A DNA stretch of 52,809 nt from a virus. Shown in pieces: positions 3,739 through 38,739 of the stretch. The DNA is taken from IMG/VR virus record IMGVR_UViG_3300030430_003806, positions 1 through 52,809 of that record; one strand, given 5' to 3'. The notes below the pieces were generated by a model. That model was not told the DNA's origin. It ran no database searches and saw nothing but the letters and a program-made list of their open reading frames with translations. The translations under genes and the position numbers were made by a program. The stretch's first letter is position 1. Each line of letters starts with the position of its first letter.

Positions 3739-3949
3739 TGGTCCTGTATACAAATTAGATTATGTATACAAAAGATACATTAAACACTATAAGCAAGGAG
3801 ACTTGAAACGTGCACAAGAATATAATAAGATAGCACAAAAGTTTCACGGTGTAGACTTAGATATAAGATATCACAATAAGTTGGCCAACCAAGAACAAAC
3901 TAAAGGCTTGTATGGTATTGGTAAAGTGAAAAGAATAAAGTATGGGTAA
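3731..3949 (+). CDS. Small basic protein before TerL, 72 aa
   Basis: It starts at GTG (3731), overlapping the end of the preceding gene by 8 nt, and its stop overlaps the TerL ATG. It is Lys/Tyr-rich and mostly helical (KRYIKHYKQGDLKRAQEYNK), with a net charge of roughly +10. A DNA-binding role next to the terminase, for example as an alternative small-terminase candidate, is plausible but not shown by any motif. Confidence 0.5.
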   Translation: MANGPVYKLDYVYKRYIKHYKQGDLKRAQEYNKIAQKFHGVDLDIRYHNKLANQEQTKGLYGIGKVKRIKYG

Positions 3950-16264: not shown

Positions 16265-19200
16265 ATGGCGCAGAAAAAACAAGTAAGCAAGCCACAAGGA
16301 TTTACACATGGGTTAGTATCAGATCCAGATCCAAGATTTCAAATCAAAGGTAGTTACACTGATGCTCTTAATATACGACTTACGAACGATACAGGTGATA
16401 CGTTTACTGTAGAAAACATCAAAGGGAATACTTTACTTATAGATTTATTTGGAGTCCAGTTTCAATCATATATTGATGCTGTTGGCGTTTCATCAGGAAT
16501 ACTTGAAACAAGACCTGATATTCAAAATAGCGCTAATACTCCTGGAGCAAGTACTTTAATATTTTCTGAAATATATGCTGATCCAAAAACTATTATAAAT
16601 AATCAAGAGGTTGGATCTAATTTTCCAAGTCCACAAAATCCATCGCCAGGTTCTGGCCCTGATTTAACTCTTACAAATCAAACGGGTTATCAAGGTTTGT
16701 TTCCGTTTTTTGAACCAGGAACATTACCAGAAACTATAACAAATGTGGACTCATTTGAATCTATTGCTAGAAAAAATCATTCTAACATAGTCGGATATGT
16801 TTCTGTTGGTAAAGAACTAATTTTAATTATTGTAGTAGCTACAGTAAAAGAAATAAAGCCTGACTTAACAGCTATTGATAATCCCACAACAAGAACGGTC
16901 TTTCTAAGACTTACTATAGACGATGAAAATAAAGTTGAATCTGTTGAAGATTTACTTGTAAGTTATAGTTTTTTGAACGGCAACTATCCAGATCTTAACA
17001 TGAATATTGATAACCCTGTTCGTGTTGAAGCTATAGTTGAAAATGAAAGTATAACAAGAATTTATTGGACAGATAATAAAAACCCACTTAGAACATTAAA
17101 CACAAGACAGTCTGGTAAAAATTTATTACCACCTTCTAGTTTAAATCTAACACCACTTGTAAATGCATCACAACCTGTGTTGGATCTTACACTTAACGGA
17201 TCTTTACCTGTAGGCACATATCAGTATGTATATAAATATATATCTGCAAATGGAGGAGAATCTTCATATTCACCACTTAGTAACTTTTACCATGTAAGTG
17301 AAGAGGGTTTTGCTACATCAACTGATTATGGAGGATCTCCAAAAGGTGAAATTGGATCACAAGGTTTTAGAATAGTAGTAGAAGATTTAGATACAAACTT
17401 TTCATATATAGAGCTATATGCTTTATTGTACGAAGATCTTAATATACCACCTAGGGTTGGTTTGGTAGATAGAAAACTAATAACAGATGGTGCTACAAAT
17501 GTTGTTTTTAATCATCTAGAATTTACTAATGAAATATCAAATGGATTGGAAGAAGTTCTAATTGAAACCAATACGTGGGACGTTTGTAAAGATATTGCAA
17601 TAAAAGATAATATATTATTTGCAGGTAATTTAAGACAAAAAAGAAATTTTATATCTGAAAAAGAATGGAATGTAAAAATTTTACGACATAATATAAGTTC
17701 ATCATACAGTCCGCCAGTATTAGATCAAACAGCGATGCTTACATCAACTGATCCAGAAGTACCTGTGTATTTTAAAGAGTCAAGTAATTCTCCAACTGTA
17801 AAATTAATACCAGACGATGATTATCTTTTGGGTAAGCTCAACGATGGTGATCCAGCAGAACCACAATATGCAACAAGATACTTACAAAGAAAAATGAATG
17901 GTAATGCATTTTCTTTAGCCACTAAAACACAAGATGAATATAGATTTTTAGATGATGGTATGACGCTTGGTGGTCAAAGCTATAAATTTGGTCAAAATTA
18001 TTTAGGTGGCTGTAGAGTTACTTTTGGTATAAAAGAAAAAGTTGCTGACATTACTACTAATGATGGAAATGTACCATATATAGAAAGCGTATCTAATTCA
18101 ATAGATAATTTTCAAACAGACAATATAGCAGGTGAAATAATAGAAGTTGGAGGCGTGCTGACTACACAAACATTAATAAATAATAATACTGAAGTAACAT
18201 ATAGTGCTTCAATGAATCTAGGGGGTAATAAAGATCCGCATCTTGCGGGAGATCAAAGAGGTTATCAAAGAGGCGAAATATATAGATTTGGAGTACAGGT
18301 GTATGATTTAAATGGCAGCCCTGGTAATGTACTTTGGATTGGTGATATACAAACGCCAGAAATGTATGATTTATTAAGAATGATGAATGTAGATTCAGTA
18401 GCTTATGATCCATTACAAGTTGATTCAACATATTTAAATGGGGATCATAAAATAATAAGTTTTGATAAAATAAAAGATCATAGAATATCTACAGTTTGGG
18501 GGCATTCTATACCTCCTGTGGCTTGTTCGTGGTTTAATGATAATACTAGCGTACAGGATAGTCAAGCAAAACCAGAAGCTTATATTAATGCTGATGGGAC
18601 GCGGGTAGATACAAATACAGATAATTTAAATCCTGGGCTTGGATTAAATGCAACAAGAAAAAATAAATGGTATCCTGGATATATAGCTAACACATTGCCT
18701 CAATATCCTGACAGTCTTAATAACTACGATAGCAGGCATTATCTTTTTGATTTGTTTGTAAACTTTGAGTTTTTAATACCTCAAGAAGTGTGTGAAAAAA
18801 TATCAGGATTTAGAGTAGTAAGAGCAGAAAGAAAAGAAATAGACCGTAGAGTTTTACAACAAGGTTTGTTAAATCAAACAATGAAGTATGGTAGAATTGA
18901 TCAAGGGTTGCAAAGGGGTTATTATCAAGATGCTAAATTTTCTGTAGATGATAATGAAAACTATTCGGGAACTACAGATTTTCCATTTTCAAATGCGACG
19001 AACACTGATCCACAATTTTTAGAATATGATACATTTTTAAATGGATATGTTGGCTTAGCAGAAAACTCACACATTGCAAGATACGAAGATGGAATTACAA
19101 CAGGTAAACTAACAGTTGGCGGGGTTACAGAGGGACAAGTTTATGTAATGCAAGAAAATGAAAATCAAGTAGGTTTTTACGGATCATATCCATATAGAGA

Positions 19201-21961: not shown

Positions 21962-23529
21962 TGGCATATTCTGATATTATAAAAGCAATAAATACTTATG
22001 GTGGGTTTTACAATCAAGGTAGAGAATATCAAGCTACAAATCCATATTCAAGTTTAGCTTTTCAACCTTCATTAGAAAATATATATGCAGAAAATCCAGA
22101 ACCAATAAATCCTGTAACACAAGCTAGAGAAATGCAAGATGAAATGACAGGAGCTGACAAAACACTTATGGGTTTAAGTCAATATGGATTAGGAGCTGGT
22201 GTAGGTAAGGGGCTTGCATACGCTGAAGGTAAGGCTCCAGAGTTTCTTACAAAAATATTTAAAGAAGCAACACCCACATCATTTAACCCTGCAGCAGCGT
22301 TAGGAGTATATGCAGCAACAAGAGATCAAAACCCTTATGAATATAGTAATGTAGAGCTTGGGGGTGATATAGCTAGTGGGGCATTACTTGGTACACAAAT
22401 AGCTCCTGGAGTGGGAACAATTATAGGTGGTTTAGTTGGTTTAGGTAAGGGTTTGTTTAGTCAAAGTCAGGCCAAGAAAAAAAAGGACAAAGCAGAAACT
22501 AAATTTCAAAAACAATTAGAAAAAAGACAAGACGCTATTAATGAAGCCGTGATTGACCAAAGAGAACAAATAGCTAACATGAATACAGCTTTAGCATATA
22601 GCGATGAAGCTGGTAAATATCAAAATATATATGGTGGTAATTTATCATTTGAAAATGGTGGTATTTTACAAGCTTTTGGTATGCCTATGGATAGTATTAT
22701 GAATAGACAGATATTTGTTGAGTCTAGTTTTGATCCTTTAGCTAGAAGCAAAAAAAACGCTTTAGGACTAACACAGATCATACCTAAGACATTTGAAGAT
22801 ATGAAAAATCGTGGTTTTGTTCCAGAGGGTAAAACCTTTGAAGATTTAAAAACCGATACAGATTTGTCTATGAATTTGCAAAGTAAATATATGGACGCAT
22901 TACTAAATAGAAGTTGGAATCAGACGGGTAGTGAAGAAGTAAGAGTAGCAAAAGCATTAGCAGCATATAATCTTGGGCCAACAGGATTAGTTGATAGGCT
23001 TAATAAATTAAAAGATAAAGGTGTTGATATATATGGTGGTTTGTCATGGGTAGATAAATTACCTGAAGAAACTAAAAATTATGTAAACAAAATATTAGGA
23101 ATGACAGGTGAAGAGTTTGAGCAAGATTACAAAAAAGGGTTTAAAGAAAGGGGCTCAAAGTTCAATGACGGTGGTAGAAAAAATATTGTAGCTGAATTTA
23201 CTGGAAATGAATTGATAGTAAATGATCAAAATGAAGTAGAGGCTGGACTTAAATCTGGTGATTTTAAAAGAGCTGCTGCCCCTATTAGAAGAGCAATGCA
23301 GGGTGGTATGATTACACCAGGCAAAGAAACTCATGTAAAGAATCCTATGCCTGTAGATGCAGATGGTAATATCTTTTCAAAGAAAGGACAATTGAACTTT
23401 CGCGTGCGTGCGGGCGCGGGCGTGTACGACCATGCAACTGATCAGTTTAAGTCTAATATGGATGATAAAGAAATTGCTATGGTTGCACAAAAAAATATAA
23501 ATAAGTGGAAAAAAAATAATATGGCATAA
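21961..23529 (+). CDS. Internal virion protein with lytic transglycosylase domain, 522 aa
   Basis: Residues about 245-385 match the soluble lytic transglycosylase (SLT) pattern: catalytic Glu in IFVESSFDP (E254), the GLTQI block (269-273), and the AYNLGP motif (335-340). It would cut murein during DNA entry. Residues 130-165 form a Gly-rich hydrophobic stretch (GGDIASGALLGTQIAPGVG), followed by a coiled coil at 170-210, both common in ejection proteins. FENGG (230-234) and FNDGG motifs are shared with other proteins here. Residues 481-490 are encoded by a sharply GC-rich DNA patch. It is coupled by TAATG to its neighbours. Confidence 0.8.
   Translation: MAYSDIIKAINTYGGFYNQGREYQATNPYSSLAFQPSLENIYAENPEPINPVTQAREMQDEMTGADKTLMGLSQYGLGAGVGKGLAYAEGKAPEFLTKIFKEATPTSFNPAAALGVYAATRDQNPYEYSNVELGGDIASGALLGTQIAPGVGTIIGGLVGLGKGLFSQSQAKKKKDKAETKFQKQLEKRQDAINEAVIDQREQIANMNTALAYSDEAGKYQNIYGGNLSFENGGILQAFGMPMDSIMNRQIFVESSFDPLARSKKNALGLTQIIPKTFEDMKNRGFVPEGKTFEDLKTDTDLSMNLQSKYMDALLNRSWNQTGSEEVRVAKALAAYNLGPTGLVDRLNKLKDKGVDIYGGLSWVDKLPEETKNYVNKILGMTGEEFEQDYKKGFKERGSKFNDGGRKNIVAEFTGNELIVNDQNEVEAGLKSGDFKRAAAPIRRAMQGGMITPGKETHVKNPMPVDADGNIFSKKGQLNFRVRAGAGVYDHATDQFKSNMDDKEIAMVAQKNINKWKKNNMA
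23398..23430 (+). other. GC-rich patch inside the transglycosylase gene
   Basis: About 30 bases from 23401 are roughly 80% G+C in a genome near one third G+C. Ten consecutive codons (residues 481-490, RVRAGAGVYD) all end in G, C or T, with eight of ten ending in G or C, quite unlike the surrounding A/T-ending usage. Confidence 0.7.
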
Positions 23530-25541
23530 TGAGTAGAGAAGAATTTTTAAATCAACCAGGCGTAAAAGAAAAGTTAGAAGAAATTGCAAAAACACATAAT
23601 TTTTCAGTTGAAGATTTATTAAATGTTATAAAATTTGAAACTGCTAATACATATGATACTACTATAAAAAATCCTAATAGCCCAGCAACAGGGTTAATAC
23701 AGTTTTATCCTGATAAAGGACAAACTTATAAAACTATTAATGGAGTTAAATATGAAATGGAGGACATTAAAAACATGTCTGTTCTTGAACAGCTTGATTT
23801 AGTAAACTCATATTTTATTGAGAATCACACAAAAGGTGAACACCCCTATATTACTGTTGCATTACCTGGTAAAGCAGACTCTGGATTAGATGATATAATA
23901 GCAACTCCAAATGATTCTATTGCTAAAGCAAATCCAAGCTGGACTGATAAAGATGGTAATGTAACAAAAAGAAATATTTTAAAAAATGTTTTACCAGAAG
24001 CAGAAATAGACAACTATTATAGTAAAAAGAAAACTGATGAAATGGAATTTGTTGACGTGCCAGAAGAAGATGATCCAGATATACCTTTAGGTAAAATACC
24101 AACAAAAAAAATAGAACCAAACGCTTTTAGTGCTGGCGTTAAAACAAAGCATACAATTCAGGTAGGGCTTGGTGGATTGCGAGATGGCGTTTTTGTAGGG
24201 GGGTTAACAAAGGAACAAGAAGAAAAATTAGAAGAGCTGGGTATACAAGTTTCAAGCAGACAACAGGGTAATGTTGTTATTTATGAAATAGAAACAAAGA
24301 GTTTAAATGAAGCTAATGAATTAAGAAAAAAAATTGATGATACAAATCTTTTTCGTAGTGTTTTTACAAAACACTTTAAGGTAAACAAAGACGGAACTGA
24401 AGATAGAATTTCTGCTGATCAATTGTATAGATTTACAGGTAAAAAATCATATAAATATGATCCTGCAAAAGATGAAAAAATAAATTTACCTGGAGAAACA
24501 CCACCCTTACCAGAAAGTTATGATGATCTTGCTAAAGATTATGATTATGATGCGGAGGAAGCTCTAAAATATGGCTACAAAGCTGAAGATTGGAAAGCCT
24601 TAAATCCTGGACAAAAACAAGACATAAGAAACATGATGGATCCAATCATGCAAATGCTTCAGGAAGAAAAAGAAATGATTGATAACTATTTCAAAGAAGA
24701 AGCAAAACCAGAAGAAGAAACAAAACCAGAAGAAAAAACTATAAATTTAGAGGGTGACATGAAATCTGTAGATGTGCCAGAATCTGATGATAAAGATCCA
24801 GTTGACACAAAAGAAGTTCTTAGGCAGACAAATCCTGAAGAATTCGCAAGATTGTATCCTGAAGATACGCCTGGAAAAAAAACAATAACGGATGCAATAG
24901 GTGGGGCGGCATCATTTGCCGATTCAGCATTTACTACTGCATCAAAAGTATTAGATGGTATTGGAGGTCCAGGAGCATTAGTTTCATATGTATTAGGTAA
25001 AAGAGCATTGAAAGATGCTATGCAAGAAGTGCAGCCACAAAAAAGAGCCGATCTATCTCCATTGTTTTACGAGCAATATAGACAATCAAAAGAACTTGCT
25101 AAACAAGGATTTGCTCCTAATGAAGAAAGAGCAATTAGAGAGCGTATTGACGATGCATATCAAGTAGGATTAGAAAATGCAGTAAGAGGTACTGCAGGTA
25201 ACAGGGCTAGATTTTTAGCACAGTCTGGAGTATTAGACTCTGCTAGATCTTCGGCACTATTAAACTTTGCAGCACAAGATGATCAACTACGTAGACAGAA
25301 TCAAAAAGAGTTTACTGATCTTATGATGTTTAAAGAAAATTTTGATCAACAAAGATCGGAACAACAAAGAGCAGAAGATATGAGATTACAACTGCAAGAT
25401 AAATCAGCAGCAGGTCAATTTGCTGCACAAGCATTTAGTAATGTATTAAGTGGCTTGTCAGGCAACAATGCTTTATTAAAACGTGCATTTGGAAATTTAC
25501 AATCAGGAGGTTTTTCACCAACAAGTATATTTACAGGTTAA
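23529..25541 (+). CDS. Second internal protein with lysozyme/transglycosylase-like domain, 670 aa
   Basis: The N-terminal 130 residues look like a second peptidoglycan-cleaving domain: LLNVIKFETANTYDTTIKNP with candidate catalytic Glu E37, then SPATGLIQFYPDKG, then the SVLEQLDLVNSYF helix. This is the standard arrangement of phage-tail lysozyme-like SLT domains. Residues 170-460 are acidic and partly disordered (Glu/Pro/Lys repeats around 385-410). Residues 460-670 are a helical ejection-protein-like region with RAIRERIDDAYQVGLENA, FLAQSGVLDSARSSALL and a coiled coil. It is likely ejected with the DNA. Confidence 0.75.
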   Translation: MSREEFLNQPGVKEKLEEIAKTHNFSVEDLLNVIKFETANTYDTTIKNPNSPATGLIQFYPDKGQTYKTINGVKYEMEDIKNMSVLEQLDLVNSYFIENHTKGEHPYITVALPGKADSGLDDIIATPNDSIAKANPSWTDKDGNVTKRNILKNVLPEAEIDNYYSKKKTDEMEFVDVPEEDDPDIPLGKIPTKKIEPNAFSAGVKTKHTIQVGLGGLRDGVFVGGLTKEQEEKLEELGIQVSSRQQGNVVIYEIETKSLNEANELRKKIDDTNLFRSVFTKHFKVNKDGTEDRISADQLYRFTGKKSYKYDPAKDEKINLPGETPPLPESYDDLAKDYDYDAEEALKYGYKAEDWKALNPGQKQDIRNMMDPIMQMLQEEKEMIDNYFKEEAKPEEETKPEEKTINLEGDMKSVDVPESDDKDPVDTKEVLRQTNPEEFARLYPEDTPGKKTITDAIGGAASFADSAFTTASKVLDGIGGPGALVSYVLGKRALKDAMQEVQPQKRADLSPLFYEQYRQSKELAKQGFAPNEERAIRERIDDAYQVGLENAVRGTAGNRARFLAQSGVLDSARSSALLNFAAQDDQLRRQNQKEFTDLMMFKENFDQQRSEQQRAEDMRLQLQDKSAAGQFAAQAFSNVLSGLSGNNALLKRAFGNLQSGGFSPTSIFTG

Positions 25542-25543
25542 TT

Positions 25544-27646
25544 ATGTCAGATTTTGGATACTATAGCGCTTTACTAGGACCACTAAAAACGGCAGGTAAT
25601 TTAGGTCAACAAAGACAAAGAAATGAATTGCAAGCGTTTCAATTGCTTAATACTGTTAGAAACCAACAGATTCAAAACTTCAAAATAAATGAAGCATATC
25701 AAAAACAGTTATTGAATGCAGAGGAGGCTGCTAAAAGCACCTTATTTACTGAAGTAGGTCAAGGTCAAAATAAATTTACATATGGTAGAAAAAAAGATGT
25801 TGATGATTTTAGAGCATGGATGCAAGAGAACTCAAGTTTTGAAGATATAAAAAATGTTTTAAGAGAATATAATGGAAATGTAATGAATGCAAAATTATAT
25901 GGAAATTTAGATCACTATATGGCTCAATATAAACAACAATTACAGAATAATCCAATTCAACAAAGAACACAAAAAAATTTACAAAATCTTAAATCTTTTT
26001 ATAAACATGCACTTGATGTAAATGGTAATGCAAGATTACTTACAAAACAAACGCTTCAAAATTTTGATGCATTTACTAAAGGAGAAATAGATAATTTTAA
26101 GTTTCATGGTTTACGAGGAGATTATTTACCTGCTAACGATGATGCGTTTAAAGCAAAATACGGAGAACTAGCAGCAGGACAAAATTTAACTGCAGAAATG
26201 ATAGTAGCCTTGAATCAAGGTGCAATATTGAAAGATATGATGAATGATTATTATGGAAGCGATTTATCACCACAAGAATATCAAGAAAAAGCATCTGCGT
26301 TTACAAATGAAATGATGATTGCTTATGTTAATAAAGAATTAGGCGGTGAAATGTCAGCAACTGGTGTTCAGTATTTTAATGGTGTACCATTGTATGGTGT
26401 TAAAGAACCACAAGTTGCTATGTCTCAAAGAATATACAAAGCTTTAGAATCAATGAAAGCTATTAGCCCACAGACTGTAGAAGATTATTACACTGGTCTT
26501 GAAGAGGGATTAACAACAAGAAATAGATTTACACTTGGTCAAGATGGTGGTGTTTTTGCTGAATTTGAATCTATAGGTGGCGTTGAATCTGGCACTGGTC
26601 CAGAACGTATAGGAAAAAATGTTCCTTACTTTATTAAAAATAGACAATTAGCTGGAACAGATAAAGTATTTGCAGATCCAAACGTAGAGGCTGGTATTAC
26701 TGAATCTTGGGCACCAAAAATAAGGGTAGATGAAAATAAATATATATCTAAGTATAATAGAACCAAAAAAGAAATAGAAGACTTTGATCCTATTGGAACT
26801 TATAACGATTCTGGTACTTTAATAAAACAAGATGATCAAGGTTTGTTTGGAGAAGAAACTAATATTGATGCAAAACTGCAAGGATATTTTATTGGATATA
26901 AAGTATCTGGTAAAGTTAATGGCATGCCTGAAAGTTTCTTGCTTTTTGATAGTAAAGAAAATACAGATAAAATACTTGATAATTATAAAGATAAAGTTAT
27001 AGAGCCTGTATTATTGGCTGAACTTGTAGACAAAGAATTTGCAAATGATTATTACTATAAAGAAGTAGATATAAAAAATGATGTTATAGCATCTGCAATA
27101 GATGAAAAATTCCCTTCTGAAAATCTTAAAAATGCTGCAATAAGTAGAATATCTGCGGATAAACAAATAGAGTTTAATGCAAATCTTGCAGAAAAAACAG
27201 AAAGTCTAAAAAGAAAACTGACAAAAAGTTTAGAGTTACCAGAAGGATCTGATGTAGATCAGTTTATGAATATGTCAGATAAAAATTTATCTGTATCTTT
27301 AAGACTTAATGATGTTCCAACTAATGTTATAAATTCAGTCATGCCTTACATTATTGGTGATTTATATTCTAATGCAAAAGCAGACAGGCAGTATCCTGTT
27401 GTAATGTCAAGAGACGCTAATGGTAGTCCAGTAGATGTAGCTAATAATCAAAATGAATATTTACAGCTATCAACAAAACTATTCTACAATAGTATATCAA
27501 ATCCAAATAATAGAGATATGCTAGAATCTATTAAGCAAGGGCCAAGTGCATATGATCAATGGAGACAAAGAAATATGCCTAAAAAAGATTATAATAAATC
27601 AAAGACAATAATTAGAGATATAGCAAAGTATTATCATACTCAATGA
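25544..27646 (+). CDS. Internal virion (cargo) protein, 700 aa
   Basis: No enzyme motif is seen. The N-terminal 130 residues are helical and Gln/Asn-rich (LGQQRQRNELQAFQLLNTV). The central part is mixed, and residues about 540-600 include a charged helix (EKTESLKRKLTKSLELPEG). It lies between the two transglycosylase proteins and the giant polymerase-like protein and overlaps the latter's ATG (ATGA). In crAss-like virions, proteins in this position are carried inside the tail as ejected cargo, so the same role is inferred here. Confidence 0.6.
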   Translation: MSDFGYYSALLGPLKTAGNLGQQRQRNELQAFQLLNTVRNQQIQNFKINEAYQKQLLNAEEAAKSTLFTEVGQGQNKFTYGRKKDVDDFRAWMQENSSFEDIKNVLREYNGNVMNAKLYGNLDHYMAQYKQQLQNNPIQQRTQKNLQNLKSFYKHALDVNGNARLLTKQTLQNFDAFTKGEIDNFKFHGLRGDYLPANDDAFKAKYGELAAGQNLTAEMIVALNQGAILKDMMNDYYGSDLSPQEYQEKASAFTNEMMIAYVNKELGGEMSATGVQYFNGVPLYGVKEPQVAMSQRIYKALESMKAISPQTVEDYYTGLEEGLTTRNRFTLGQDGGVFAEFESIGGVESGTGPERIGKNVPYFIKNRQLAGTDKVFADPNVEAGITESWAPKIRVDENKYISKYNRTKKEIEDFDPIGTYNDSGTLIKQDDQGLFGEETNIDAKLQGYFIGYKVSGKVNGMPESFLLFDSKENTDKILDNYKDKVIEPVLLAELVDKEFANDYYYKEVDIKNDVIASAIDEKFPSENLKNAAISRISADKQIEFNANLAEKTESLKRKLTKSLELPEGSDVDQFMNMSDKNLSVSLRLNDVPTNVINSVMPYIIGDLYSNAKADRQYPVVMSRDANGSPVDVANNQNEYLQLSTKLFYNSISNPNNRDMLESIKQGPSAYDQWRQRNMPKKDYNKSKTIIRDIAKYYHTQ

Positions 27647-30600
27647 TAGAAAAAGATACATACAATACAGATGCAAAAAAAGCTATTTCAGAATATGACA
27701 ATTCTGAAACAAATAGAATTAATAGTTTATTTGATAATATTGTTGTAGGGGAAATACCTAATCAAGAAGCGTCTAATTATTTTAGAGGTCTTGGTGCATT
27801 GGGTTCTGCACAGGCATCACAACCACAAGAACAACCATTGCAAGAAATGCTTGATCCAAGAGCTGCAATAGGCACAGGTAGACAAAGATTTGTAAGAGGT
27901 TTTAAAGCAGGTTGGGGTGATTTGTTGTATGGATCAGGTGACACATATGACTTTATAAAATCATTTTTAACACCAGGAGAACCACAGCCAGACAGTAAAA
28001 TAGGTAATTATTTAAGAAACATAGGAGAGCAATATCAAAACGATAATGTATTAGCTTTATCAAAAGATTTTGATGATATGTCATTTTCTGATTTATTCAA
28101 AGGTGAATTTTATAGCTCTAAGTTTTCTAGACTATTACCATATGCTTTATCATTTGTAGTGCCATATGGAACAGGATCTATATTAGCAACAAGAGCTATG
28201 GGTAGGTATGGTGTGAAAGTTTTATCAAAGTTTGGTAAAGCTGGAAAATTTGCTACACCTGGTACTGGTTTAGCTGGAAAATTTGTATACGATGCAGGTA
28301 AAAAAGGATTAAAGGCAACAAAACTAGCAAAAAAGACTTCTGGTTTAGTAGGTGGTGGTTTAACAGCAAACTTAGTAGAAGGTGCGTATTTATCTGGAGA
28401 AGCATATAATACTATGATTAACGAAAAAGACGCAAACGGTAATCCATTATTTACACCAAAAGAAGCCTCTAGACAAGCTGTAGGCGTTATGGGTGACAAT
28501 ATGAAATGGGCTGGTCTTGATATTTTACAATATGGTTTGTTATTTGGTGGTCTTGGTAGAACGGCAGGTTTTAACATAGGAGCAGTAATGAAAAATGTAA
28601 GACCGCAAAAAATTAAATTTTCAACTAATATTAGAACACTATCAGCTTCATTAATGAAAAAAATATTACCCAATTTACCTGCTGCAGGATTATATGCAAG
28701 TCTTGAGGGATTAACTGAAGGGTTTCAAGAAGTATATCAAGAATGGGCTAAATATGCAAATATACAAGAAGCAAAAGGATTAGAATATGATGACTGGACA
28801 GACTGGTTAAAAACCGCACCAACTGATCAAGCACCTAAAGAGATCAAAGATATTTTTTGGTCAAGCGTAGGTTTAGGCGGTACATTAGGTGGAGTCAGAG
28901 GATATTTTGATTCTGCTGCAGAAAGAACAAAAGCATTTAATGATAAATCTGATCGTGTAAATAAACAAATAGATTTATGGGAACAAAGTTATGAAGATAG
29001 TGCTGCAGGTCAAAGAATGCAAGATGCAATTTTAGCAGAACAAGTTTGGAACTACTATGGTGATGGAACGTATTCAAAAAATCAAATACAACAACAAGTA
29101 GATAGCGGTAAAATGACACAAGAAAGTGCAGACATTTTATTTGAAGCTATAGATAATTTAGAAACTGCATATGAAAAACATACAATAAATTCAGGCCTTA
29201 CTGAAAGTGGAGCGCAGGCAGCTTTCTTCTATGAAGTTGAATTATCTAGAATAAAACAGGAAAAGAAATCTTTAGAAGAATCAAAAAATGAACAAATAGA
29301 TAAAATTTCTAAGGTTATAAAAAATAAAGAAAATCTACAAGAAAAAGTAGATGCAATAGAAAAAGAATACAATGAATTAGTTGAGAAAAAAAATCAAGAG
29401 GAAGCACAATTAAATCAAGAAATTGAGTTTTTGTATACAAGAAAAAAAGACACAGCGCCTAAAACAAAAGCAGGCGCTAGAGATAAAAGATTTAAACCTG
29501 CAGGACTCACTGACCAAGAGTTTGAAACACTTACACAGGAAGGTGAACAACAAAGACAAGAAAGAGAAGCTCAAGAAAAAAAAGATCAACCATCAAGATT
29601 ACAAAGAGTAACAGAAACAGCTAAGAAAGCTGGGGCAGCTGTTGTGACTGGCGCACAAAATGTTATTCAGGCTGGTAGAGATCGTATTAAATCTATTCAA
29701 GACAAAAGAGCAGAAAATAGAAAAATAAAAGATGCGGTAAATCAGATTGATGAAATGGAAAACATTACATCTAGCGCAAAAACAAAATTAAAAGAAGCAG
29801 TTGAAAATGGTGAAGTTACTGTAGAGGATGCTTTAAATATAAAAGGCACTGGTAGAGACGGCAACATCAACAACAAAGATGTTAATTTACTTAAAAAACG
29901 ACAAGAAAGGAAAGATACACAAGCCGAAGAAACGTCTCCTGAAACTCCAGAAGACGTAAAAAAAAAAGACCAAAATAGAGTAGTTCCTAAATCAAGGGAC
30001 TATCAAGAGGTAGAATCTAAAGGTTCTAGAACTCTTGAAAAATCAAAAATAGAAAAAGGTAGAGGTAAGTCATATTACACTATTGTTAAGGATGGTGAAA
30101 AAATATCTTACGTTGATCAAGAAGGCAGATCAGATGTGTTTGTTTTAGAAGATCAAGATGTAGATATAGAGCTAGAAGTTCGTAGTCCACAAAAAGGTCA
30201 AGAAAATGTAGTTAACATTGACGGTCAATTATTTTTTGAGTTTAATAATAAACTATATGAGTCTGAGATTATTGTAAAAGCGAATGGAGTTGAAATCGGT
30301 AAAGTAGCACAAAGAGATTTTGCAAAAGGATTTAAAAGAAAAGCTAAAAAGACTTCAAACAAATCTGTACTTGATAAAGTAAAACAAAAAATTAAAAAGA
30401 AACAAAAAGATGTCAAGGATTATGTTTCTGCAATAAAAGATACAAGGCAAGATCCAGATGAATATGTAGGACTAAAAGCATATGCGCAAAGCGGTGGTAG
30501 AACATCTTTGTATGAGTATAGCTATATTAAATCTATAGTTGATAAAAAGTTTCCTGGCTTCAAAGGTATTCTTATGGATAATCTTATTGATGACTATGGA

Positions 30601-33600
30601 CAAAAATCAGTAGCGCTTGCATTTGGTAATATAATACTTATAAATAGAGATCAAGTTACGCAAACAACGGCTGTTCACGAGGCTGGACATATATACTATA
30701 CGTTACAAAAGAACACGCCATTAATGAAGCGTATACGTAAACTATTATACAGAAGTAAGATCTATGAAGATATTAGAAGAGAGTATCCAGAACTTATACT
30801 TATTAATTATAAAGGAGATAAAATTACTTTAGGAGAACTGTATGATAGAATCAAAACAGATCAATCTCCTAATGTAGATAATGCCATGGTCAGTTTAGCT
30901 AATGAACTTCAAGAAGCAGAAATAGCAAACGATAATACTAAGATAAATGAATTGTTTAATGGCTTATTGTTATTAGCTAAAGGCGACGGAGCTAAAGAAG
31001 TTAGAAGAGATTTGCAAGACCATGTTATAGAAGAAGCATTTGTTAGAACTTTAGAAAATTATTCAAATGGTACAGCTGATTCTGTAATTGAAGGTACATT
31101 AGCTAGAGAACAATTAGAAAAAGACATTATAGAGTTTTATAAAAAAACTAAAGATATAGCTACTGATGAAGAGGCTAGAGAGTTTTTGAACATAGCGGTA
31201 GCTGACATTGAAAATTTAAATCTTGAAACTGCAATAAAGTATGTATTAACTAATTTTGAAGCTAACAATGGTAAGATACCTAAGATTAGAAATAGTGCAT
31301 ATGGGGCAAGAAAAAGAGCATCTAAAGACAAAACAAGACGTATAAGCGGACATTCAGTAATATATTCACACATTAGTAAGTATATAGGTAAAGCACAATC
31401 AACAGATCAGATTACTGCAAGTGTATTGAAAGACCTACAAAAAAACTACAATTTGAGTGAAGAGCAGGTAGCCGATATAAAAACATACATAGAGGCTACA
31501 GTTGAAAAATCAAATAATAAGATACAGTATAAGCAAGGAAACAAAAGGTTTGAAAAACTTTTAGATGATGTAAGTCAAGAGTCTGAAACTCTTAATGATA
31601 TAGAAGCTAGAGAAGAAAAAGATCTTGCAATGTCTACTACCATGTCAAATGTTATGTCAAATATTGTAAGCATATATAATGGTAGAAATCCAGATAATCC
31701 AATGTCACTTAAAAAATTAATGGCAAAGTTAATAGGATTAGCAAAAGACAATAAATATGATTCATATCTGTTTATAACTGCAGCCAGACAAGAAACAGAT
31801 GAAATAGCAAACATGTTTAGCGTATTGGATCAAGTATATCTTAATCCAAGACTAAGTAACGCAAAGCTGCTAGAAATGAAAATGTTTTTTGATAATGTAC
31901 AAATAGAAAACTTTACAAAAAATGCATTAGTTATAGAAGATAAAGGTGTTAGAAGTTGGAGGCAATTTGATGCAACTAGTAGCACACTTGAAAATAGAGT
32001 TGTTACATCTTTACTTAATAAAATAAAAAAAGATCAAAATAAAATAGGGCCCAAACTAGCAGCAGTATATAACGAGCTGTTTGATAAAGATGCTAATAGT
32101 ATATACAACAGAAGAATAGCTGCAAAAAAATATTTAGATAATTTATTTGAAGATGTTGAAAATGCAGGACTTATAGATAAAGATGCTGTATTAAATAACT
32201 TACTATATTTTGATGGCAGAAGAGATTATTTACACAATATATTATTTGATCATACAATAAATAAGTTTGGTAATCCAGATCTTAAAACCAAAGGTCTTAT
32301 GGCTTTTGCAAACAAAAAATTTGTTTTCAAAACAAAAGCATTTACTCCAGGTATATTCAATAAGCAAATAGAACTAAGACAAATACTTACACAATCTTTA
32401 ATACTGTCTAGAGCATCAAACTATTTATCTATAGTTGATAATGTAGAAAATCAAGGTGTAAGTATTCTTAACAAAGAAAATAGCTTACACAATAAGTCTA
32501 TGCGTATAGCAAATAGAGTAAATAACAATGAAGAGTTTTCTAAAAAAAATATATTACATCCTGACAACAATATATTTACAGCTATACTTGAGCAAAGAAA
32601 AAAGAATGGAGAGCTTGTAAATGACAACAAAGATATAATTACAAACCCACTAGGAATAAGTATAAATTCAGGATTGATGACTTATCTTAAAAGTGGTGTA
32701 GAAGCAGAAAGATATGTTGATAAATCATTAGCATATACAAGAATGTCATCTATAGAACTACTAGCAAGTGATTATTTTCAATTTATTTCTCAGTACAATA
32801 AAAACAAAAACAAAAAATCATTTTTCTATCAGCAACCAATAGCTGTATTTTCAGATAAAAGCAGAAGGTATTACGTTGATGCATTAGCTGCACATAATGA
32901 TACTACTACAAAAATTATATTAGATAAAATTAAAAACAATCCTGCGTATAAAGATACATATACAGATGGATCAAGAGTTTTTCCTTTTGATATAACTAAT
33001 AATCAAATTAGTAATATTAAACAACTTGAAAAAGAATTTAATAATTATATAGAAAAAAACATAGAATTATTTAAGGGTAATAAAGACTTTGTAAAAAATA
33101 ATCCTGCTAATAAATTTTTCTTAACATCATATATTGCCAATAAGTTTATGGCACAACAGTTTTTTATACATGATCATAGACAATCTAAAAATGAAATAGA
33201 TTATATAAAAAGAACTGCTGGTGCAATAGCTAGCGGTACACCATATGATAGAAATGCTCAAGTAGAAATGATTATATACAAAGATACTTTTGATAACGAA
33301 GGCAATATACAAAATGATGCTATGGGGTATATGTTACCAGAACAAATACAAGAGGTTTCAGAAAAGTTTGGTGACATTCAAAAGGTTGGTAGTGTATTGA
33401 AGTTTGTATATTATCATACAGACATAGACACAAACGAAACAGTGTATTTAAAGTTTGCTGTCCATCCTATTACCAAAACCATGGAAGATAACAGTGAAGC
33501 GTTTAAAAAAATAGCTGATGATCTAAGAGCTAGACATACAGAAATATCTGAAGTAGTTATAAAAGATTTTGATGGAGAAAATATTTTTTTACATGGAAAC

Positions 33601-36600
33601 TTAGTTCTAGCAGTATCAGAATCATCTACCAAAGTATTTAAAAAAGGTGTAGAAAATAGTGAGTATGTATATGATATTTTTGAAAATACAGAAACTATAA
33701 ATCAAAAACAAAATGAGCTTTATTTAGGAGATGACTATCAAGCATTATCTGGCGAGGGTTTACGTATTCAGTTGGAGCTAGACAAACAATCTAACGAAAG
33801 ATTTTATCCATCACAATTATTTTATCATTTACATACTAACATTGATAGAGATGGTAAACCATTTATTGATAGCATGACTAATAGTCGTACAGAAGTAATG
33901 AATGAAAATAACGAAAGTCGTAACAGAAATATAATAGAAGTTGGTGATAACAAAAATGTATATAAAGAAAGAGATGAGCTTTTGTCATCCGTTAGCTCTA
34001 ATATATATGGACCGCTTATAGAAAACTTTTTTTCATATGCAGATCCAAGATATCCATATATAAATGGTCCTTACAATGCAGCAGCATTAGGAAGGGTGGC
34101 GCATAAGGGTACAAAGATGTATACAAAAGGTAGTATTGCATATCAGTCATCTGATCTAGGATTAAATTTAGAATCATACAAAAAAGTTTCTGACTATTAT
34201 GATGATAATGGTAATTATACTGGAGAAACCAATACGACATCACAAAAAATATTCAAAAGAAAACTAGACCTATTACTAGAAACAAAACCAAATACTATTG
34301 TTTCTGAAGCGTGGATACCAAGCTATATGAAACAACAGGGTGTAGAGATCGGAGATTTGTTTATTGGTACAAGAATACCTGCTCATGGTAAAGTAAGTAG
34401 TTCTGTTTTTATTATAAAAGAGTTTCACGAGAAGGTTGCTAACACACCTAGTAGTAATATTACAATACCTGCAAAGGTAAGTGCAGCTTGGGGTGCAGAC
34501 TTAGACGGAGATAGTGTGCATATGAATTTTAAATATACAGAAGAAGAGGCTAGAAAAACAAATTGGAAAAGAGCAAGCAATTTATTTTTTGACAACTATG
34601 TGCAATTAGTAAGTAATGATAATAAAACAGGTGAAACACAGGCGGTTATAGATATTAAAGATACAGTAGAAAAAATATTAGGTACAGAAACCCCAACCAC
34701 AGATAGTCAATTATTACCAACTGGTGATGCTTTAGTGTTTGAAAACAATGTTCCAGGAAAAAAATTAGTTGGTATTATAGCAGCATTGCAAAGAACATAT
34801 AATATATTTTCACACAATAATGAACCAACTCCTGTACCTATAACAATAAATGGTAAGCGTGTAACAAACTTTAATGATCAAAACAAAGACGAGTGGTTTG
34901 GTGTAGCGCAGTTATTGAACATTGCATTAGATAATGCTAAGTTTCAATACACAGAAAGATTAGGACTTACTTATCAAAGTGTTTTTTCATTTGTAACACT
35001 TAAAAGATTAGGATTTGATCTTAATGATATTGTTCAGATATACAATAGTGATCTTGTTAAAGAATACATGGAGTTTAAAAAATCTAGAAGTAGAAACTAT
35101 TTATCTAGAAATAGTGATATTGAAAAACTTTTTGATAAAGAATCGGATATTAGCTATAATGAATTAGTTGAGTTTTTAAGAACTAGATACAAGGGTATTG
35201 TACTAGGTAAAAAATATAATGCAGTTGCCTGGAATAAAATAACAGATCGTATAAAAGATGGACTATCTATTAATACCAATCAACTTAATGAGCAAGCACA
35301 ATTAGATGCTGTGCTTTTAATCTATACATTAGAACAATTCAATAAAGATGTTGTTAGGCCGTTTGGTAAAGCATTTACTATTCATCAAAATATAGAAAAA
35401 AATCCTGTTGAGTTAAAATCTGTGTATGAACAGATTGAAAAAATTAGAACAGAGTCAATAGTAATTAATGAAAAAAAACAAGGTGGTCTTAATATAGAAT
35501 ATAAACTTGGTAATAGTGCAAACAATAACATTGTAACACATGCGCAAAGTATATTTCAAAAAGTTTTGAATAGAGCCAGTATAACTGATTTAAGATACAC
35601 ACCATATGTGCAAAGTATTATTGCTACTGAAATTGGACAAAACTATTTAAATGATGAAAAAAGAGCTTCTAATAAAACTGAAATTATAAATCAAGTTATT
35701 ACTAACAATCTTATAAATAAATTACCGCAACTTCAGATTTATGATAGGCAAACTTTAATAGCTGAACTAGAAGATATGAAAACTAGATACATAGGTAATG
35801 GTTTTCTTAATATTTTAGAAATAGTAAAAAATGCAGATGGAGTAGAATTTATTACTCTATCTAGTAAAATTAACGATCTAATCAGTAAAACAGAAATAGA
35901 AAACATACAAAGTGAATTTGCTAAATTAAGTATTGAAGATAAAAATAAAATATTTAGCATGGAGGCGGAGTTCAATAAGTTTGGTTATACAGGCTATCCA
36001 AAAGCCATTTCTTTTGCACCATTTTTTGATGTACAATATATGGAAAGCATTAATGATGATATTGATGCTATGGTTGAATCAGAAAATAAAATTGAAGAGG
36101 ATCAGATTTTAGTTAAGCTAGATGAAGCGGCTAGATTAGTTTCATTTAAAAAAGATAAATATAGTCTAAATGATAGAGTAGACAATGCTAGCAAAAAAAG
36201 CAGAGATATACCAATAACAAGAAAAAAAGCTAAAAAAGCATATGGTTCACGTACATCATTCAACAGAGATGCGCTATCTGGTGAAACAAAAAAATATTCA
36301 TTTAATCAGTGGGTAGCTGATAAGGGTATAGATAAGAAAAAAATATCTAGAGATTCAATGACATTTAAATTATTGAAAGATAGATATGCTACATATGAAC
36401 AAGACTATGATATTGTAAAAGAATTTGAAGGTAGTTTAAAGCGTAAGCCACTTTCAAGATATAGTTTTGCAGATTTAGAAAAAACAATAAGAAAGTTTTA
36501 TAAACTTGATAATGCAGCTAGTCAATTTGTATTATACAAAATGGAGCTACAATTAGGAAAACTTGTTTTTCGTAAACAAGCAGAGTTTTTAAGATCAAAA

Positions 36601-38739
36601 GCAGGTCAACAAAACTTTAAGTACAATATTCCAGGTGAAGATGGTACGCCACAAAGCGATATATCTGGCTTTAGACTATGGTTAGGATCTAATAATATGA
36701 CATCTGATAGACCAGAAATACAAGAGTTAATAAATACAGCAGAAAGAGAATATACTTCATATGTAAATAGATTTAGAGAATATAGAAAAGCAATAAATGG
36801 TGCATATAATAAATTATATAATTCAAAAGTATCAGATCTAACAATAATTGAAAGAGTAAAAAAAGAATTTTTACTACAACAAAAGTATGAATTTATATTT
36901 GGTAATATAATCAAAGTAGATAATGGTAAGATAAGATTACTTAATAGTAAAGAATACAATAGAGCAAAAGCATCACTATCTAAAGAAGAAAGAGATTATT
37001 ATGAAATGTATAGAGATGTAACGGCTAGACTATTTAGAGGTCAGCAAAGAGCTGGTAATGATGCGTTGTTTTCATATGTACATGGAGCAAGTATGAGATC
37101 TTTAGAAGCTATGGATAAGAATGGCATGTTTGGTTTGTATGATATGATTATAGATTCAACTGATTATAATCGTGTAAAAGTAAGGGGTAAGGATCTAGAT
37201 GGTAAAATAAAACTTAAAACATTCTATGAGTGGAAATATGATGTGTACAAAAACAAAAGCACATTCGGTGGATTAAGAGAACTAAATAAACTTAGAGCAA
37301 AAGCTAAAAGATTTAAAAAACAAGGCATCAATGAGGATGGATCAAAAATACTATTGTCAGATGTAGAAATAGATGCACTAATAAACAACGGTCAGCTACT
37401 ACAAAAGATGTTGGATAAAAACATTAAAGGAGCATCTGATATAGATCTTGAAATAATTAAAGAGTATGAAAGACGAAGAGGTGCAGCTTTAGAATTTGCT
37501 ACTATGGATATCAATACAGCTTTACTTGAGTTTGCCAGAGGTAGTTTATTTTCTAATGGCGATTCTGAGTTTGGAGGTATGAAACAAACTAGTATACTTA
37601 CTAATGCTGCTATAGCATATAATAAAAATCTAAACAACGAGAATGCAGTCAAGTATTTGACTGAGTGGTGGAAACAAGGCTTTTTAGGTAAACAACAACA
37701 AACAAGTATATTTGGAGAAACAGGCGACAAGGTGATAGATGGATTTGTAAGTCTTACGTCATTAAGATTATTAGGATTTAATTTATCAGTTGGTGTAGGT
37801 AACTTATTAGCTGGTAAATACCAAGAATTACGTAAGCGTGGTGGTAGACAATTTATTACAGGAGAAGATAGATATTTTAGAAATAGAGGTAAGTCATTAG
37901 AAATACTTAAAAAATATAGGGTTATACAGCATAGCTTTGATGATTTTGTTCATTTATCTGAAGGTAAGGGTTTATGGGGTAAAATAGAAAAAGCATCATT
38001 TATCTTTATGGATAAAACGGAACACTATATACAGGGTGCTGCATTTTTAGGATTTCTTACAAATCAAGAGTTCAACACTGGTGAGATCAGTGAGTTAAGG
38101 GTTAGAGAAATAAATAACAGAATAGCAACATTACATGGTGAGGGTTATACGGCCTTAGACGCATCACTATTATCTATGTATTCATATGGTAGATCTTTAC
38201 TACAATTTAAGAAATGGTGGCTAACATTATTTGCTGATCGTTTTGGATCAGAGCAGATTAATAGATTTGGCGAAGTAACTATTGGAAGTTATACTGCAGC
38301 CACACAATATACAAGAGACATCTTTCAAAAATATTTTAGAGGTGAGATTACTATGGTAGACTTTTTTGAAGAGTATAAAAAACTATCACCTGCACGTCAA
38401 GAAGAAATAAAAAGTTTTATGCGGGGTATTGGTATTACTGTAGCAATACTATCTATGATAGCTATATTGGAAGACGATGATGATCCAGATACAGAGGTTA
38501 TCAAAGCTCTTAAAAAACTAGAAAATGATATATATGCAGCTACAGATATAGATAGATTTATTGGGTATACTATTATACCTGCATCTATTGCTACTGGTGA
38601 AACAGCAGTTGATTTTATAGGTGAAGTTGCGTTAGACAAAAAAGATAGACTAGGTAGAAGTAAAGCTTTACGTACACTAAAAACAGAATTGATTCCTGGT
38701 TCTAGTTTAGTTGAAGGAATAGAAAACCTTATAGATTAA
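27643..38739 (+). CDS. Giant virion protein with DxDGD RNA polymerase motif and zincin motif, 3698 aa
   Basis: One uninterrupted frame. Residues 1-480 include hydrophobic, Gly-rich stretches (LLPYALSFVVPYGTGSILAT, about 164-183). A coiled coil covers about 525-605. A zincin motif HEAGH lies at 1012-1016 after a strand-like IILINRD. At 2244-2254 RIPAHGKVSSS is followed 30 residues later by GADLDGD (2284-2290), where D2286, D2288 and D2290 fit the Mg-binding triad of two-barrel RNA polymerases (NADFDGD in the bacterial beta-prime subunit; similar in crAss-like virion polymerases). The C-terminal part is helical with a short hydrophobic segment (about 3600). Probably ejected to transcribe early genes; other domains are unassigned. 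Confidence 0.75.
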   Translation: MIEKDTYNTDAKKAISEYDNSETNRINSLFDNIVVGEIPNQEASNYFRGLGALGSAQASQPQEQPLQEMLDPRAAIGTGRQRFVRGFKAGWGDLLYGSGDTYDFIKSFLTPGEPQPDSKIGNYLRNIGEQYQNDNVLALSKDFDDMSFSDLFKGEFYSSKFSRLLPYALSFVVPYGTGSILATRAMGRYGVKVLSKFGKAGKFATPGTGLAGKFVYDAGKKGLKATKLAKKTSGLVGGGLTANLVEGAYLSGEAYNTMINEKDANGNPLFTPKEASRQAVGVMGDNMKWAGLDILQYGLLFGGLGRTAGFNIGAVMKNVRPQKIKFSTNIRTLSASLMKKILPNLPAAGLYASLEGLTEGFQEVYQEWAKYANIQEAKGLEYDDWTDWLKTAPTDQAPKEIKDIFWSSVGLGGTLGGVRGYFDSAAERTKAFNDKSDRVNKQIDLWEQSYEDSAAGQRMQDAILAEQVWNYYGDGTYSKNQIQQQVDSGKMTQESADILFEAIDNLETAYEKHTINSGLTESGAQAAFFYEVELSRIKQEKKSLEESKNEQIDKISKVIKNKENLQEKVDAIEKEYNELVEKKNQEEAQLNQEIEFLYTRKKDTAPKTKAGARDKRFKPAGLTDQEFETLTQEGEQQRQEREAQEKKDQPSRLQRVTETAKKAGAAVVTGAQNVIQAGRDRIKSIQDKRAENRKIKDAVNQIDEMENITSSAKTKLKEAVENGEVTVEDALNIKGTGRDGNINNKDVNLLKKRQERKDTQAEETSPETPEDVKKKDQNRVVPKSRDYQEVESKGSRTLEKSKIEKGRGKSYYTIVKDGEKISYVDQEGRSDVFVLEDQDVDIELEVRSPQKGQENVVNIDGQLFFEFNNKLYESEIIVKANGVEIGKVAQRDFAKGFKRKAKKTSNKSVLDKVKQKIKKKQKDVKDYVSAIKDTRQDPDEYVGLKAYAQSGGRTSLYEYSYIKSIVDKKFPGFKGILMDNLIDDYGQKSVALAFGNIILINRDQVTQTTAVHEAGHIYYTLQKNTPLMKRIRKLLYRSKIYEDIRREYPELILINYKGDKITLGELYDRIKTDQSPNVDNAMVSLANELQEAEIANDNTKINELFNGLLLLAKGDGAKEVRRDLQDHVIEEAFVRTLENYSNGTADSVIEGTLAREQLEKDIIEFYKKTKDIATDEEAREFLNIAVADIENLNLETAIKYVLTNFEANNGKIPKIRNSAYGARKRASKDKTRRISGHSVIYSHISKYIGKAQSTDQITASVLKDLQKNYNLSEEQVADIKTYIEATVEKSNNKIQYKQGNKRFEKLLDDVSQESETLNDIEAREEKDLAMSTTMSNVMSNIVSIYNGRNPDNPMSLKKLMAKLIGLAKDNKYDSYLFITAARQETDEIANMFSVLDQVYLNPRLSNAKLLEMKMFFDNVQIENFTKNALVIEDKGVRSWRQFDATSSTLENRVVTSLLNKIKKDQNKIGPKLAAVYNELFDKDANSIYNRRIAAKKYLDNLFEDVENAGLIDKDAVLNNLLYFDGRRDYLHNILFDHTINKFGNPDLKTKGLMAFANKKFVFKTKAFTPGIFNKQIELRQILTQSLILSRASNYLSIVDNVENQGVSILNKENSLHNKSMRIANRVNNNEEFSKKNILHPDNNIFTAILEQRKKNGELVNDNKDIITNPLGISINSGLMTYLKSGVEAERYVDKSLAYTRMSSIELLASDYFQFISQYNKNKNKKSFFYQQPIAVFSDKSRRYYVDALAAHNDTTTKIILDKIKNNPAYKDTYTDGSRVFPFDITNNQISNIKQLEKEFNNYIEKNIELFKGNKDFVKNNPANKFFLTSYIANKFMAQQFFIHDHRQSKNEIDYIKRTAGAIASGTPYDRNAQVEMIIYKDTFDNEGNIQNDAMGYMLPEQIQEVSEKFGDIQKVGSVLKFVYYHTDIDTNETVYLKFAVHPITKTMEDNSEAFKKIADDLRARHTEISEVVIKDFDGENIFLHGNLVLAVSESSTKVFKKGVENSEYVYDIFENTETINQKQNELYLGDDYQALSGEGLRIQLELDKQSNERFYPSQLFYHLHTNIDRDGKPFIDSMTNSRTEVMNENNESRNRNIIEVGDNKNVYKERDELLSSVSSNIYGPLIENFFSYADPRYPYINGPYNAAALGRVAHKGTKMYTKGSIAYQSSDLGLNLESYKKVSDYYDDNGNYTGETNTTSQKIFKRKLDLLLETKPNTIVSEAWIPSYMKQQGVEIGDLFIGTRIPAHGKVSSSVFIIKEFHEKVANTPSSNITIPAKVSAAWGADLDGDSVHMNFKYTEEEARKTNWKRASNLFFDNYVQLVSNDNKTGETQAVIDIKDTVEKILGTETPTTDSQLLPTGDALVFENNVPGKKLVGIIAALQRTYNIFSHNNEPTPVPITINGKRVTNFNDQNKDEWFGVAQLLNIALDNAKFQYTERLGLTYQSVFSFVTLKRLGFDLNDIVQIYNSDLVKEYMEFKKSRSRNYLSRNSDIEKLFDKESDISYNELVEFLRTRYKGIVLGKKYNAVAWNKITDRIKDGLSINTNQLNEQAQLDAVLLIYTLEQFNKDVVRPFGKAFTIHQNIEKNPVELKSVYEQIEKIRTESIVINEKKQGGLNIEYKLGNSANNNIVTHAQSIFQKVLNRASITDLRYTPYVQSIIATEIGQNYLNDEKRASNKTEIINQVITNNLINKLPQLQIYDRQTLIAELEDMKTRYIGNGFLNILEIVKNADGVEFITLSSKINDLISKTEIENIQSEFAKLSIEDKNKIFSMEAEFNKFGYTGYPKAISFAPFFDVQYMESINDDIDAMVESENKIEEDQILVKLDEAARLVSFKKDKYSLNDRVDNASKKSRDIPITRKKAKKAYGSRTSFNRDALSGETKKYSFNQWVADKGIDKKKISRDSMTFKLLKDRYATYEQDYDIVKEFEGSLKRKPLSRYSFADLEKTIRKFYKLDNAASQFVLYKMELQLGKLVFRKQAEFLRSKAGQQNFKYNIPGEDGTPQSDISGFRLWLGSNNMTSDRPEIQELINTAEREYTSYVNRFREYRKAINGAYNKLYNSKVSDLTIIERVKKEFLLQQKYEFIFGNIIKVDNGKIRLLNSKEYNRAKASLSKEERDYYEMYRDVTARLFRGQQRAGNDALFSYVHGASMRSLEAMDKNGMFGLYDMIIDSTDYNRVKVRGKDLDGKIKLKTFYEWKYDVYKNKSTFGGLRELNKLRAKAKRFKKQGINEDGSKILLSDVEIDALINNGQLLQKMLDKNIKGASDIDLEIIKEYERRRGAALEFATMDINTALLEFARGSLFSNGDSEFGGMKQTSILTNAAIAYNKNLNNENAVKYLTEWWKQGFLGKQQQTSIFGETGDKVIDGFVSLTSLRLLGFNLSVGVGNLLAGKYQELRKRGGRQFITGEDRYFRNRGKSLEILKKYRVIQHSFDDFVHLSEGKGLWGKIEKASFIFMDKTEHYIQGAAFLGFLTNQEFNTGEISELRVREINNRIATLHGEGYTALDASLLSMYSYGRSLLQFKKWWLTLFADRFGSEQINRFGEVTIGSYTAATQYTRDIFQKYFRGEITMVDFFEEYKKLSPARQEEIKSFMRGIGITVAILSMIAILEDDDDPDTEVIKALKKLENDIYAATDIDRFIGYTIIPASIATGETAVDFIGEVALDKKDRLGRSKALRTLKTELIPGSSLVEGIENLID

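Follow-up and report, generated by a model that had tools for sequence, protein, structure and literature searches.

A giant gene of an environmental crAss-like phage is predicted to encode a single-chain virion RNA polymerase joined to zincin-like and subunit domains

Introduction

What is made from a single open reading frame of 3698 codons that lies among the virion genes of an environmental phage? The question is raised by the window analysed here, a 52,809-nucleotide stretch (positions 1 to 52,809 of IMG/VR record IMGVR_UViG_3300030430_003806), for which a sequence-only reading had proposed a two-barrel RNA polymerase (RNAP) of the crAss-like type. crAss phages package and inject virion RNAPs (vRNAPs), which transcribe the early genes (PMC10136315, PMC7886860); the phi14:2 enzyme shows activity in vitro and supports early transcription that is resistant to rifampicin (reviewed in PMC10136315). 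Our analysis indicates that the giant protein is very probably a virion-borne, DNA-dependent RNA polymerase of the crAss type, with two barrels in a single chain.

Results

The giant reading frame and its motifs

The gene and the motifs on which the polymerase assignment turns are as follows.

27643..38739, plus strand: giant virion RNA polymerase gene (predicted), 3698 aa; complete relatives about 3800-4100 aa
34372..34404, plus strand: RIPAHGKVSSS motif, residues 2244-2254, aligned to GYRIPNQGQSS of phi14:2 at 1320
34498..34512, plus strand: predicted DLDGD catalytic triad, D2286, D2288 and D2290, aligned to DFDID 1361-1365 of phi14:2
34915..34950, plus strand: LNIALDNAKFQY, residues 2425-2436, a conserved helix past the metal-site barrel (DPBB-A), aligned to LNAFVDNAKDPY of phi14:2 at 1607

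The frame begins with ATG and contains no internal stops, in agreement with the earlier description of one continuous chain, and its start codon shares a 4-base overlap with the stop of the upstream gene for a 700-aa protein (25544-27646). RIPAHGKVSSS had been reported about 30 residues ahead of GADLDGD, and the translation places the latter at residues 2284-2290 with 29 residues between the two motifs. By itself the DxDGD pattern proves little: it occurred in 131 of 2000 shuffles of the giant protein. R[IV]P followed 30-60 residues on by DxDxD occurred in 8 of 2000, and we take the motif pair to be more than chance because it is conserved across the aligned family members (see below). The helix at 2425-2436 we infer to be the bridge-helix region.

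Conservation among relatives

When the giant was searched as a single sequence, neither hmmscan nor phmmer gave a usable match in Pfam, PHROGs or PDB, and homology therefore had to be built from relatives. Three scans of viral contigs were used to collect these, giving 24 aligned sequences, window included, with a core identity to the window protein of 41-58%. All 24 carry R2244, P2246, H2248, G2249 and K2250, together with an unbroken W-G-A-D-L-D-G-D (2283-2290); seven basic residues of the upstream barrel (K1920, K1937, R1962, R1964, K1997, K2048 and R2053) are likewise invariant in this alignment. Profile hmmsearch of PDB sequences gave nothing or chance matches only, a tblastn comparison of the RNAP region with named phages was negative, and no relative turned up in the bacterial genomes scanned, hence no host link.

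This conservation bears on whether the giant could be a decayed RNAP that now acts only as a structural or ejection protein. The very long, poorly conserved linkers would suit such a history, as would the giant without RNAP signs that the Manatee Spring phage encodes at the same locus. However, although the 24 sequences differ from one another at roughly half of their residues, the triad and RxPxHGK never vary among them, and the reading frames are open throughout the relatives, which makes decay highly improbable.

The Manatee Spring giant (MW202828.1; L074:741-12320) is 3859 aa long, contains two HEFGH motifs and is annotated as a reticulocyte binding/rhoptry protein. It showed no RNAP-type DxDxD and no RNAP profile match, and is either an RNAP-less counterpart or too divergent for detection. 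Because it is undetectable as an RNAP, an RNAP is not obligatory at this locus, and we discarded the notion that any giant encoded there is automatically one. In the 3481-aa giant of Azobacteroides phage ProJPt-Bp1 (L036:709-11154), HRTPLNGLQS aligns weakly at the RxP position; a scan of this protein for DxDxD did not find the pattern, and its metal site may be altered.

Profile comparison with crAss RNA polymerases

When the family profile was compared with a profile of seven crAss RNAPs, window residues 2241-2489 matched phi14:2 residues 1319-1671 (E 1e-8 with the full profile, 2e-10 with a sub-profile), and reversed profiles used as a control gave no match. A profile search against the phi14:2-type polymerase had been suggested as a check of the sequence-only reading, and for this segment it bears the reading out. 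The matching segment, which spans the RxP motif, the metal triad and a later LN..(L/V)DNAK..Y helix, is the sole RNAP part to reach profile significance; hhalign scores for the sub-profiles of DPBB-B (the upstream barrel) and of the zincin region were not significant.

The window protein and phi14:2 gp66 share eight landmark motifs in the same linear order. The pairs (window/phi14:2) include NDAMGY 1891/TDAQAW 961, YLK 1935/1025, LELDKQ 2044/LPVKTIK 1103, KMYTKG 2158/KLKTNGG 1230, GTRIP 2242/GYRIP 1320, GADLDGD 2284/GSDFDID 1359 and LNIALDNAK 2425/LNAFVDNAK 1607. The pairing before residue 2241 is our own reading, backed by the predicted fold rather than by a profile score.

The sequence-only reading had also equated DxDGD with the Mg site of multisubunit-type RNAPs. 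The triad is indeed aligned and invariant here, but the crAss phages examined have DFD(I/V)D or DYDID instead. DLDGD is the metal-site spelling of cellular RNAPs. Close to it is the DFDGD metal site of P23-45 gp96 (PMC10770324).

Predicted fold of the polymerase region

A ColabFold model of residues 1560-2720 was built from 21 window and locus sequences (mean pLDDT 66, pTM 0.55), so that confidence in the model is moderate. Foldseek against the PDB placed 6VR4, the phi14:2 virion RNAP, first (E 4.4e-15, probability 1.00), with a wide margin over QDE-1 (E 1.4e-3) and others, among them P23-45 gp96 (E 0.2). VIA, which re-aligned Foldseek's own candidates, gave Z 13.5 against 6VR4 (rmsd 4.3 over 829 of 1161 residues; model 36-1120, chain 224-1852), Z 10.4 against QDE-1 and Z 9.9 against gp96; by this predicted model, the 6VR4-like fold extends beyond the barrels. 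In BFVD, the named matches at E < 1e-3 were crAss-like phages, phi14:2, Virus NIOZ-UU157 and one Podoviridae sp. Two double-psi beta-barrels (DPBBs) were assigned.

33226..33786, plus strand: DPBB-B, first (beta-like) barrel, residues ~1862-2048 (model mf3a1216dc878, VIA against 6VR4)
34111..34641, plus strand: DPBB-A, second (beta-prime-like) barrel with the metal site, residues ~2157-2333 (VIA matches to DPBB domains; crAss RNAP profile match)

DPBB-A (model 598-774) aligns by VIA with isolated DPBB domains and with multisubunit RNAP barrels. For the upstream barrel, a separate model of residues 1860-2095 (pLDDT 77, again of moderate confidence) aligned with 6VR4 899-1105 at VIA Z 10.1 (143 residues, rmsd 3.8), followed by RDR2 and QDE-1 (Z 5-6) and by p97 and designed DPBBs (Z 3.4-3.9). 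This match came from VIA; Foldseek with the isolated DPBB-B model gave no significant match. The sequence-only reading had held that its proposal would fall if no double-psi barrel were found around residue 2280, or no second barrel with conserved basic residues upstream. Since both barrels are present in the prediction, one at 2157-2333 and the other within 1860-2095 with its seven invariant K/R, the proposal stands. Residues ~1600-2680 are thus predicted to adopt the phi14:2 virion RNAP fold, with both barrels and the invariant DLDGD triad.

Although phi14:2 gp66 (6VR4, Steigviridae) shares with the giant a two-barrel single-chain fold, collinear landmarks and a metal triad, it is only 2180 aa long, has DFDID rather than DLDGD, and lacks both HExxH and a fused subunit domain. 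The RNA-silencing polymerases QDE-1 and RDR2 also have a single-chain two-barrel fold (VIA Z about 10), but they are eukaryotic, match more weakly and lack a virion context.

P23-45 gp96 offers a different precedent, in which the giant would be an RNAP fused to a tail tape measure protein, with only general similarity to crAss enzymes. Besides its VIA score, gp96 likewise joins a two-barrel RNAP with DFDGD, a metallopeptidase and transmembrane segments in one giant chain (PMC10770324). Its RNAP, however, is N-terminal in the tape measure protein of a long-tailed phage, whereas here the RNAP is central; both Foldseek (E 4e-15, compared with 0.2 for gp96) and VIA (829 residues) clearly rank 6VR4 first, and the genome carries a crAss muzzle gene. 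With neither fold nor genome closest to P23-45, we consider a gp96-type protein extremely improbable, and retain the crAss-type polymerase as the preferred reading.

Domains flanking the polymerase

Three further parts of the chain were delimited.

27820..29322, plus strand: N-terminal region with suggestive homology to crAss giants (hhalign)
30676..30690, plus strand: zincin-like HEAGH motif at residues 1012-1016, followed downstream by the invariant E1130/E1131 (family conservation)
37603..38703, plus strand: C-terminal domain, residues 3321-3687, with homology to the C-terminal end of the separately encoded crAss 'RNAP subunit' (hhalign)

The HEAGH motif had gone unremarked in the sequence-only reading. 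HExGH is present in 23 of the 23 family members that cover the site, and both E1130 and E1131 are invariant. At the sequence level, the combination of HExxH with a downstream acidic ligand matches the zincin metallopeptidase motif; the region gave no significant profile match. At the N-terminus, a multi-row profile aligned window residues 166-823 with cr1_1 275-1015 (E 7e-6), and matches to single chains were weaker (phi14:2 gp078, E 4e-3), so that this homology is suggestive only.

The C-terminal domain aligned with residues 1551-1988 of the second giant of cr1_1 (2007 aa; E 2e-8), with Steigviridae subunit proteins (E 2e-6 and 2e-5) and, in part, with the 1349-aa 'RNA polymerase subunit' of PhiCrAssBcn2 (E 5e-5). 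By size and order, the latter is presumably the counterpart of crAss001 gp49 (154.5 kDa). Mass spectrometry found the RNAP-associated proteins gp47, gp49 and gp50 in crAss001 virions (PMC10172136). For the zincin-like and terminal domains, a role in ejection, in passage through the envelope or in processing of the protein is probable.

Split and fused architectures among crAss phages

The sequence-only reading had suggested that the chain combines regions that other phages split among several genes. We surveyed the C-terminal domain by one-by-one chain comparison, each with a reversed control. The domain lies apart from the RNAP chain in cr1_1, cr4_1, cr128_1 and PhiCrAssBcn2 (E 2e-9 to 2e-5) and behind the RNAP in the same chain in crAss002, Rudgehvirus jaberico and LMMB (E 6e-5 to 7e-4), the last of which is labelled a fusion in its own record. 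Comparisons of the domain with the second proteins of cr60_1, cr272_1 and cr273_1 stayed below significance, and the giants of Fpv1 and ProJPt-Bp1, which gave no significant single-chain alignment, were left out of the survey.

The HExxH part is distributed differently. Suoliviridae giants (cr1_1, cr4_1, cr60_1, cr118_1, cr272_1 and cr273_1) resemble that of the window in carrying HEA(F/W)H upstream of a two-barrel RNAP in one chain, but they are 4491-6386 aa long, and the protein with the subunit domain is encoded apart from them (as shown for cr1_1 and cr4_1). Conversely, the Intestiviridae fusions (CrAssphage LMMB, crAss002 and Rudgehvirus jaberico; 4070-4245 aa) join RNAP and C-terminal subunit domain in the same order as the window, whereas their HExxH part lies in a separate upstream protein of ~2000 aa. 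No HExxH was found in a scan of the Steigviridae chains examined. The three parts are therefore spread over two or three proteins in the named crAss phages examined, and among the phages examined the HExxH part, the predicted RNAP and the C-terminal subunit domain share one chain in the window family only. In this respect the earlier suggestion holds.

Its further statement that crAss-like phages carry single-chain polymerases in giant proteins also holds, with the correction that large single-chain forms are already known, up to ~6000 aa according to a review (PMC10136315); the cr272_1 giant reaches 6386 aa. A giant crAss vRNAP is thus a known kind of protein, of which the one-chain make-up together with DLDGD, in an environmental lineage, is a variant. 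We found no description of this variant in the literature, of which our coverage was partial.

Genome neighbourhood and lineage

The genes upstream of the giant were assigned as follows.

3942..5762, plus strand: terminase large subunit (PHROG 6681, E 7e-93; tree)
5759..8017, plus strand: portal protein (PHROG 6547, E 5e-118)
9162..10703, plus strand: crAss-like major capsid protein (MCP; PHROG 11589, E 6e-31; 28% identity to Suoliviridae-type MCPs)
16265..21961, plus strand: crAss muzzle protein, 1898 aa (Pfam PF25731, E 3e-120)
21961..23529, plus strand: SLT transglycosylase protein (Pfam PF01464, E 2e-12)
23529..25541, plus strand: 670-aa protein, possible cell-wall enzyme (PHROG matches to peptidase, baseplate-hub and uncharacterised families; no Pfam match)
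25544..27646, plus strand: 700-aa protein directly upstream of the giant, in cargo position (gene order; no family match in PHROGs or Pfam)

The giant had been described as encoded directly after ejection proteins, and we find it behind a crAss muzzle, an SLT transglycosylase and two proteins in cargo position; that the 700-aa protein is cargo is suggested by gene order. The muzzle family PF25731 was negative in 14 control genomes. In cr1_1 (Suoliviridae) the order is a 'stabilization' protein, proteins of 682 and 597 aa and a giant of 4551 aa, matching the window's order of muzzle, cargo, cargo and giant; because of this likeness, we regard the giant's position as the known crAss vRNAP position.

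Could the polymerase instead act late, or in the producing cell only, as a non-virion enzyme like P23-45 gp64 that is never injected? P23-45 does encode a non-virion enzyme besides its virion polymerase (PMC10770324), but here the gene sits within the virion block behind the muzzle and cargo-position genes, and its fused domain has homologues in the gp49-type proteins detected in crAss001 virions (PMC10172136). A non-virion role is accordingly improbable, and a virion-borne polymerase remains our preferred reading.

Marks of Crassvirales, identified with Pfam, PHROG and tblastn, are a muzzle, terminase, portal and MCP of the crAss type and the order of the virion genes; terminase and capsid share 22-30% identity with Crassvirales. 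In a terminase tree that sampled Intesti-, Steig- and Suoliviridae but no Crevaviridae, the window and six environmental relatives clustered tightly and lay outside these three families; because this tree is unrooted and long-branched, we call the phage crAss-like without assigning a family. A terminase relative is encoded by 215 stretches in IMG/VR, of which the 80 kept are 81-98% identical. The 215 stretches point to an extensive and well sampled group of environmental phages, and no named family was found for it.

Three of the genes behind the giant were noted in addition. A 378-aa protein just downstream (39187-40323, plus strand) has a concanavalin A-like lectin domain (PF13385, E 1e-13) and may bind host glycans. 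A 777-aa protein (42387-44720, plus strand) begins like a signal peptide, contains many YGCTDPTMFNYNPLANTDNGSC-type repeats and carries a C-terminal sorting domain for type IX secretion (T9SS; Pfam PF18962, E 3e-9; also at locus L001, E 9e-7). A Bacteroidota host is suggested because a phage gene product is marked for T9SS export, and such a protein is an unusual phage cargo. Finally, a 1460-aa frame (48428-52807, plus strand) runs off the window end in a possible tail fibre/adhesin position, with no clear family in Pfam.

Discussion

Homology and gene order suggest that the giant would be packaged in the virion and would act in early transcription. In such a scheme, the chain would be packed near the portal and threaded, partly unfolded, through the barrel and muzzle alongside the transglycosylase and channel-forming cargo. 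The polymerase would refold inside a Bacteroidota host and transcribe early genes ahead of any phage protein synthesis, and late genes would be served by the host RNAP.

Consolidation of the crAss transcription module in one chain is supported by the comparisons above. We consider it unlikely, though worth stating, that the built-in zincin of such a consolidated, injected chain cuts it during or after ejection and thereby frees the active polymerase from the terminal domains; were this so, one gene would do the job of three packaged proteins elsewhere.

In a diverse group of environmental crAss-like phages, the injected transcription machinery is apparently a single chain, which at 3.7-4.1 thousand residues falls short of the split versions added together, and DLDGD places a cellular metal-site spelling inside the crAss polymerase clade. 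Comparison of split, partly fused and fully fused forms may reveal which vRNAP parts are core and which are dispensable, and the window family would provide a compact one-gene system for testing how a large polymerase passes through a narrow tail.
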